Assembly (NCBI GenBank): GCA_963669155.1
Contig: OZ022576.1
Span: 10,232,710-10,296,709 of the forward strand
Length of the DNA stretch: 64,000 bases
Direction of reading: 5' to 3'
Source of the DNA: Arbacia lixula
Lineage: Eukaryota > Echinodermata > Echinoidea > Arbacioida > Arbaciidae
The first letter of the stretch is position 1. Every line of letters begins with the position of its first letter. Shown piece after piece: positions 6,301 to 9,300 of the stretch. A model generated the notes under the pieces. The model ran no database searches. It was not told the origin of the DNA and saw only the letters and a program-made list of their open reading frames with translations. A program made the position numbers and the translations under genes.

Positions 6301-9300
6301 TCTCTCTCTCCCCCCTCTCTCTGTAGTTTCCGTGTAAGTTCATCGGGCACCGTGCGGGCTTCCCGAGGGTGCAATAAGCATGTTAATATCACAGATAAAG
6401 ATAATGATATAAATTAGAAAGAGGCCGGCGGATAGACGAAGCTGATTAATCACATAAATAAATCATTTAAAGGATTTATTAGTCCGTATCCTCATTATCG
6501 TTAATAAATTGTAAGTATTCAAACGAGTATTGGTTTGTTCAATCATCCGTTTTTTATTTATGCAACAATATTCTTTGATTAATTTGCTTTTCCGTTTCTT
6601 AACTTTTGAATCATCAACGAGAATAACTGTGATATTTGATCTCAATATTTATGAGCCGTGATTTGAACAAAAATGTTCTGTTCAAATGTTATCAAATTGC
6701 TGATGGCCACGGCGGCCATTCTTCCCAGCAGCACAGTGCAAAGATAGTCCATATAGACAATGTACAGAGGTCTAAAATACATTGATCTCCATGAACCGTT
6801 TCAAACAGCCCTTGTCTTGAAAACATCTTTGCTCCCAGGGTACAATCTTCTTACCGACTATGATGATTACGCCAAACATGATTGCATAATCTTCTCACCG
6901 ACTATCTTGATGACGCCAAACATGATTGCATAATCTTCTTCCCTACTATGGTGATGACGCCAAATATGATTGCATAATCTTCTTCCCGACTATATTGATG
7001 ACGCCAAACATGATTGCATAATCTTCTTACCGACTATGTTGATGACGCCAAACATGATTGCATAATCTTCTTACCGACTATGATGATTACGCCAAATATG
7101 ATTGCATAATCTTCTTCCCTACTATGGTGATGACGCCAAATATGATTGCATGATCTTCTTCCCGACTATATTGATGACGCCAAATATGATTGCATAATCT
7201 TCTTACCGACTATATTGATGACGCCAAACATGATTGCATAATATTCTTACCGACTATGTTGATGACGCCAAACATGATTGCATAATCTTCTTACCGACTA
7301 TGATGATTACGCCAAACATGATTGCATAATCTTCTTCCCTACTATGGTGATGACGCCATACACGATTGCATAATCTTCTTATCGACTATGTTAATGACGC
7401 CAAATATGATTGCACAATCTTCTTACCGACTATGTTGATGACGCCAAACATGATTGCATTGGGGGAGACGTAGGTTAGGAAACTCTCGTCCTGATTGGAG
7501 AGCGGCCCTTCAGAGCAATTCAACAGGTGGTAGACAATGTCCGTGCTCCCTGCAGGTAAAATGAACGTGAAGACAGTAATGCTCATACTACTAATGATAA
7601 CGATGCTAAATATGTTACTCAGTCATAATGCTCAATAATAATAATACTCAATAATACCCAATGATAACGATGAAAATAAGGATTAAAAAATAATTGTAAT
7701 ATGAGTATGACTCATAATAACCATCATGATAAAGATATATTGCAGCTGCAAGTTTGGACCCTACCCTCCTGATCGACTTAGAGAAACGGTCCACTACACC
7801 ATCTATACAATGCCACTTCAGCAAAACTCTTATTGGTAGCAAATATAATATGCACAATATCATTGACAGTGAAAAATAATATACTTATGATTCAATGTGT
7901 ATTCATGTGACGCAATGCTTTATTGTGCGGTTCTGCACATTCAAAGCTTTGCCTTCACCGCCTTTGGTTTTTGCCCCTTTTCTTGCTATCAAATGCATTT
8001 TCAGGAAATAGAAACACCCTTTGGTATGTAAGAAATAAAAGATAGACATGCCGTGAAATGTTTGGGTTGGCGTTGAGTTTAAGAATGCTTTTGAAATACG
8101 ACAACGATATAGCAACAAGGTCTAAGCAATAATGTCTTTACCGAAAAAAAAGATATTCAATCGCTTGTCTAGTGCCAGTTGCATTTACATTCTTAGAAAA
8201 ATTATTGAATGTAAAATTGTAATCAAGTCCATATTCATGGTATACGTGCACAACTATATACTTCAATGTGGTTAACTTCATTCGTGTGTGCCTTTTGAGA
8301 TGGTTGATGGCCATTCTTTAACGTATCAGACTACAAACACAAACGTAGTCATTTAAATTTGAAAGTCGTTTGCGTACTGCCCTGGCTATGTCGACATGGC
8401 CGATGTCGTTCGTTTGTTTGTTCGTTTGGGTTGAAAATATGTATTTTCCTTGCTCTGTGCGTGACTTAAGAAACCTTAAATCACGCACAGGCCGATCAAA
8501 TAAGGACTTGAACACAACTCATTTGTTGAAGCCCACTATATTAATGGGCAGTTACTGCTTATAATAGGGTTTTACAAAGCCTTTAAAAGTAGACAAAAAC
8601 TAGGTTAATAGGCGGGATTCAGGAAGCCCTTAACACAAGACACTCAACAATGGTTTTGCGCTGCAAACTGCACTCTGCAATCTTATTTAAGCCAATGTAT
8701 CACTTTAAATGGTATACCTAATGAGAAGAAAGGGCGATTAAAAGGGATTAAAGAAACACGATAGAAGAAGTGGAGAACGTCATACGTGAGACAAATTACA
8801 AAGATACATTGGTAGCATAAAACGTATGTAAAGGAAAGGAAATCAAAAATGAATGGACATCAGGTGATGGAGATTGAGTCATTGCTCTCAGCAAAAATCG
8901 TAGTGCAGGGTGTCAAGTTTATAGTCATAGTGGATATTGATAGAGGTTGTAGTGACGATGGTAATGCGTACATTATGTACATGTTTACGTGTGTGTGTGT
9001 GTGTGTGTGAGTGAGAGAGAGAGAGAGAGAGAGAGAGAGAGAGAGAGAGAGAGAGAGAGAGATTGGTTGTATGTTCGTGGGTGGGCGTATGTGGGAGGGC
9101 TATGGGTCCTCATACACATACCAAGAGAATGGTTGTCGCCGACACCGTTATAAGTGATGAGCAGGAACACGATCATGATGATGAAGATGATGGAGGTGTT
9201 GAAGTACGACAGGTAGAACGTGGCACCCAGCCCGCCGATGCCCGTACTTGCCCAGATGATGCCCGCTAGAGTTAGGGCCGCCATCTCCAGTGACAGACCG

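Follow-up and report, generated by a model that had tools for sequence, protein, structure and literature searches.

A minisatellite spanning the splice donor of exon 5 in a DUR3-like urea symporter gene of Arbacia lixula

The DUR3-like gene and its array

We analyzed a 64,000-nucleotide stretch of the Arbacia lixula genome (contig OZ022576.1, positions 10,232,710 to 10,296,709; hereafter the window), whose minus strand carries a gene resembling those of DUR3 urea symporters. Intron 5 of this gene opens with a tandem array of 44-bp units, each repeating the end of exon 5 together with its splice donor. The relevant features are listed below in window coordinates; units are numbered from the exon side, intronic copies that keep a donor GT are called live decoys (those that lost it, dead), and a slash marks an exon-intron boundary.

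7427-7549, minus strand: exon 5, DUR3-like, 123 bp, ending in phase 1; the final 33 bases form the exonic part of unit 1, and the reading frame was aligned to a solved DUR3
7416-7459, minus strand: unit 1, the true exon end and donor, TCG/GTAAGAAG; unit 10 and the array consensus have the same sequence
6844-7415, minus strand: units 2 to 14, 13 copies of exon end and donor within the intron, with 0 to 5 differences from unit 1
7372-7415, minus strand: unit 2, dead donor GATAAG; any transcript spliced at a decoy would meet the in-frame TAG here
7328-7371, minus strand: unit 3, dead donor GGGAAG
7284-7327, minus strand: unit 4, the closest live decoy donor, exon extension of 132 nt
7196-7283, minus strand: units 5 and 6, live decoy donors, extensions of 176 and 220 nt
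7020-7107, minus strand: units 9 and 10, live decoy donors, extensions of 352 and 396 nt
6844-6931, minus strand: units 13 (GTGAG) and 14, live decoy donors, extensions of 528 and 572 nt
3546-7426, minus strand: intron 5, 3,881 nt, with the array at its 5' end
3339-3545, minus strand: exon 6, with acceptor CTGGCAG/GTAACTTCGGG and a 3' end, GAGG/GTAAG, read by eye

Similarity over most of the predicted protein relates the host gene to those of DUR3 urea symporters. The query was built from exon translations joined by hand, with both ends missing. It matched three distinct sequences of solved structures, all named DUR3 (best E value, 1.2e-91), and scored 37.6 bits against the Pfam model SSF, above the cut-off of 22.8. 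Against the NCBIfam superfamily model TIGR00813 it reached 114.5 bits, under the cut-off of 184, which counts against the assignment. Exon 5 reads STDIVYHLLNCSEGPLSNQDESFLTYVSPNAIMFGVINIV, and its junction with exon 6 gives ...NAIMFGVINIV-G-NFGTVFVDQ..., which aligns with INIVGNFGTVFVDN of the solved DUR3 9j7c (E value, 1.2e-91). A six-frame search of the 607-Mb, 590-contig genome returned nine DUR3 matches from 11 candidates, all in the window; no second DUR3 locus was found in this search, which a diverged paralogue could have escaped. In COX1 of contig C590 of the same genome, AAA falls at two asparagine positions and ATA at isoleucine positions, in keeping with mitochondrial code 9 of echinoderms and flatworms; taken together with the rest of the sequence, this codon use points to an echinoderm. 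Exon 5 is so numbered on the assumption of a putative exon 1 at about 46.5 kb: an open reading frame (ORF) on the minus strand at 46291-46863, reading MAGGSWDGRR...LDLRTAMIILVCFGVFAITLSYLFNIVRKFVYQDK, is a possible DUR3 exon 1 lying ~34 kb upstream of exon 2.

Tandem Repeats Finder (TRF) placed the array at 6844-7459 (616 bp), with a period of 44, 14.0 copies, 90% matches, 0% indels, and a score of 994, in agreement with the first-pass annotation of this DNA, which had given the same coordinates and 14 copies of a 44-bp unit without indels. On the minus strand, the array begins at exon 5 with unit 1 (7459-7416) and ends with unit 14 (6887-6844). The sequence of unit 1 is ATGCAATCATGTTTGGCGTCATCAACATAGTCG/GTAAGAAGATT, exon part and then intron part. 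Its position at the end of exon 5 accords with two further statements of the annotation: that the unit consists of 33 coding bases plus 11 intronic bases beginning GTAAGAAG, and that the array runs from the real exon end into the intron, on which the frame and the protein alignment agree. Over all pairs, units diverged by a mean of 4.0 of 44 bases; units 1 and 10, 4 and 14, and 8 and 12 were identical. The array sequence matched once in the whole genome. We rejected a coding repeat because 44 bp does not make up whole codons and the frame of exon 5 meets a stop in unit 2.

Donor strength and the transcripts expected from decoys

The donor GT is kept in 8 of the 14 units (1, 4, 5, 6, 9, 10, 13, and 14) and lost in units 2, 3, 7, 8, 11, and 12, that is, in 6 of the 13 intronic copies. 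Both copies adjoining the true donor (units 2 and 3) are dead, and the closest live decoy is 132 nt away. Predicted pairing with U1 small nuclear RNA (snRNA) gave energies of −8.2 to −8.3 kcal/mol for the eight intact donors, the seven decoys equaling the true donor. These values uphold the earlier argument that the donors compete, and the annotation's figure of at least eight competing GT donors is reached when the true one is included. GT sites at least as strong occur on the same strand 41 times in the other 63,384 bases of the window (0.65 per kb), and the three found in intron 5 outside the array all lie >2 kb from exon 5. Among the other DUR3 donors, pairing energies were −8.2 kcal/mol for exon 3, −7.2 for exon 4, −9.4 for exon 7, and −4.6 for exon 9; this comparison across the gene covers exons 3, 4, 5, 7, and 9, with exons 6 and 8 left out.

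The U1 5' end used for pairing was present in all eight U1 loci read from the genome. These eight came from 42 scored matches, among which the positions labeled L036 to L038 belong to a neighboring copy of the U1 array; the genome scan scored 42 of 8,919 candidates, so U1 counts are lower bounds. At least 37 of at least 42 scored matches fall in a tandem array of U1 snRNA genes with a spacing of ~1.25 kb (contig C4, 9425734-9470883).

The predicted energy needed to open the donor site was 4.34 kcal/mol in unit 1 and 0.98 to 4.39 kcal/mol in the other units; therefore, predicted RNA structure does not favor the true site. The predicted opening cost was below that of the true donor in six of the seven live decoys and about equal to it in unit 14. 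Many copies can form a 7-bp hairpin with the donor in the loop (−5.7 kcal/mol in unit 1), and 2.1% of 20,000 random 22-mers from the strand folded as well as the unit 1 hairpin. A conserved RNA structure hiding the decoys was not supported: units 3, 5, 7, 8, and 12 have a weak hairpin or none, and the whole-array fold (z = −1.51, 1 of 20 shuffles folding as well) also counts against it. An Rfam scan of the window returned no match at gathering scores.

Use of a live decoy would extend exon 5 by 132, 176, 220, 352, 396, 528, or 572 nt. All seven predicted transcripts read INIVGKKIVQSYLASLT followed by a stop, a TAG in unit 2 that lies 91 to 531 nt before the new junction. The annotation had stated that reading through the true donor hits a stop in the next unit, and this TAG is that stop. 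It had also reasoned that most downstream donors shift the frame, which is true but beside the point, since the unit 2 stop comes ahead of any live decoy and makes the frame of the extension immaterial. A protein made from such a transcript would end 13 residues after INIV and would be without exons 6 and later. Nonsense-mediated decay generally acts on stops more than 50 to 55 nt ahead of a junction; given the distances found here, decay of the decoy transcripts is expected. Because every decoy adds the same stop, its use would either truncate DUR3 or trigger decay.

History and frequency of the copies

Unit 1 is the TRF consensus and encodes a conserved part of the protein, both of which would be expected had the array arisen from the exon. 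Units five positions apart (lag 5) differed at an average of 2.67 bases, a value reached by 0.6% of 20,000 shuffles and by 4.9% after correction over lags 1 to 8; this resemblance is a marginal sign of growth by blocks. Variable columns number 14 of 44. Both GT columns vary (2/2, against 12/42 of the others). Former codon positions show 11 distinct changes, of which 4 are synonymous; random change would give 22%. From GT loss and codon changes, both of which comprise few events, we saw no constraint or selection on the intronic copies, and nothing shows selection either to keep or to remove decoys. Gene conversion into the exon is not needed to explain the identity of units 1 and 10, because units 2 to 14 differ from unit 1 at 2.6 bases on average and, by a Poisson estimate, ~1 unchanged copy is expected.

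The annotation had found the array surprising on the ground that minisatellites normally ignore exon boundaries. The part of the genome that we sampled gives little reason for surprise (20 ten-kb stretches, spaced 1 Mb apart over the initial 10 Mb of contigs C1 and C2; a small and nonrandom sample). Arrays with a period of 20 to 200 and at least 5 copies numbered 4 and covered 0.69% of these 200 kb, 2 of the 4 being CT-rich low-complexity tracts; with a period of 15 to 200 and at least 3 copies, there were 14, covering 1.85%. Arrays are common in this sample, so some will straddle a donor. If the genome holds ~100,000 donors, as we assumed, the sampled coverage would place hundreds of them inside arrays without selection, and the survival of one that straddles a donor is therefore no great surprise.

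Known arrays of this kind and competing explanations

The layout is already known from human ABCA7 and IFI6, and structurally the DUR3 array adds one more case to this kind: its units run head to tail and fall within the 10- to 100-bp range of minisatellites, the true donor stands at one edge, and 7 of 13 intronic copies keep a GT with U1 pairing equal to that of the true donor. A partial literature search found no donor-spanning minisatellite in an echinoderm or in DUR3. According to the passages of De Roeck et al. (2018; PMC5954066) drawn on here, the variable-number tandem repeat (VNTR) in ABCA7 intron 18 has a 25-bp unit flanking exon 18, the first two bases of which are the exon 18 donor GT; it measures 592 bp (23.7 copies) in the human reference and reaches up to ~427 copies in people. 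The same passages report that, besides the canonical isoform, a donor one repeat further in is sometimes used, leading to a frameshift and a premature stop. As far as these passages describe it, the ABCA7 array resembles that in DUR3 in lying at the 5' end of an intron, in including the exon's own donor, and in length (592 and 616 bp, respectively); it differs in starting at the donor with no exon end inside, whereas the 44-bp DUR3 unit has 33 coding bases.

For IFI6 (also 6-16 or G1P3), the part of PMC4526556 consulted, which cites Turri et al. (1995), describes a minisatellite with several donors, of which those in two downstream repeat units are used, giving three mRNAs. On that description, repeats multiply a donor in both genes. 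The IFI6 unit is reportedly ~12 bp and in frame, with isoforms a few residues longer. The DUR3 unit differs in its 44-bp length and in the stop that follows from use of any live decoy. Intron gain by tandem genomic duplication (e.g., PMC4974935, in the portion seen) is similar in that a tandem duplication multiplies splice-signal sequence, and different in that the DUR3 array makes no new intron. Creation of an intron by tandem duplication does not apply, the acceptor of intron 5, at 3546, lying outside the array.

How the spliceosome selects one of several equal donors in near-identical exon context is usually studied with engineered constructs; the DUR3 array offers a natural setting for the question. 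It also suggests that an array of the ABCA7 kind, disease relevant in people, can arise in an invertebrate. Should individuals differ in the length of the DUR3 array, variation in urea handling could have a simple source there.

We consider it likely that the array is a minisatellite grown from the end of exon 5, in which the first donor does most of the work and some splicing is wasted on decoys. It would have begun with a tandem duplication that took in the donor and the final 33 bases of exon 5, and would have spread from there into the 5' end of the intron, perhaps adding some of its units in blocks of 4 to 5. Normal splicing probably still takes place at the first donor, since the resulting exon has a normal size of 123 nt. 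Given seven intact decoys as strong as the true donor, some transcripts are probably spliced at decoys, most likely those of units 4 to 6; these would read the TAG in unit 2 and then be decayed or yield a truncated, dead transporter. The array would thus be a tolerated side effect that at most mildly lowers DUR3 output, not a selected switch. Several points weigh against this account. The predicted opening cost of the true donor is the second highest of the 14, the block pattern is marginal after correction over lags (4.9%), and the dominance of the first donor is an inference. Reported experiments with duplicated donors suggest that a decoy with exon context, lying nearer the acceptor, could win. 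Finally, units 2 and 3 may have lost their donors through selection against nearby competitors, though dead copies make up 6 of the 13.

Other explanations assign the array more or less of a role. It seems unlikely that it works as a copy-number-dependent splicing rheostat, in which array length varies between individuals and more live decoys draw more U1 and produce more stop-containing forms, setting DUR3 dose. The equality of the seven decoys with the true donor and the premature stop that all of them share would fit, and a longer ABCA7 array is associated with lower expression and with more frequent skipping of exon 19 (PMC5954066, in the passages drawn on). Those passages also report, however, that the share of repeat-retaining transcripts stays constant over array length, exon 19 skipping changing instead, and in DUR3, 6 of the 13 intronic copies are without GT and no constraint is visible. 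Rather improbable, too, is a heritable form of this rheostat, in which the number of live donors would set the decayed fraction through the unit 2 stop and block-wise turnover would supply new settings; the gene so tuned may be the animal's only DUR3 urea symporter. At the other extreme, the array could be fully inert, its decoys never used and all transcripts showing the first donor. Exon definition would favor the 123-nt exon, but decoys equal in U1 pairing and provided with 33 nt of exon context, together with the use of downstream repeat donors in ABCA7 (PMC5954066) and IFI6 (PMC4526556), as far as those sources go, make this quite improbable.

A role of the array as a U1-binding shield appears very improbable. 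Telescripting is the mechanism by which the clustered U1 sites could shield intron 5 from premature cleavage and polyadenylation. Eight strong U1 sites do lie upstream of AATAAA signals in intron 5 (plus-strand positions 6558 and 6480); yet the scanned stretch has five AATAAA in all, apparently no unusual number for an AT-rich intron, and nothing connects the array to these signals. An assembly artefact is scarcely conceivable: most copies differ among themselves by substitutions, and the array sits inside a 55.6-Mb contig with one genomic match only.

Other repeats were seen in the window. At 29628-29838, a 104-bp unit is duplicated head to tail with 99% matches, probably recently. On the minus strand, the adjoining stretches 41790-42212 and 42705-43403 hold closely similar ORFs (GAVRRGRLLARRGKLLIDETL...), apparently through local duplication. 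Similar ORF pieces (LLLGVCLKSLCKLKLPQKALSLK and the like) at 4307-4450, 4603-4821, and 57253-57531, also on the minus strand, probably belong to a dispersed repeat; those at 4307-4450 and 4603-4821 sit past the array toward exon 6, and that at 57253-57531 lies far off.
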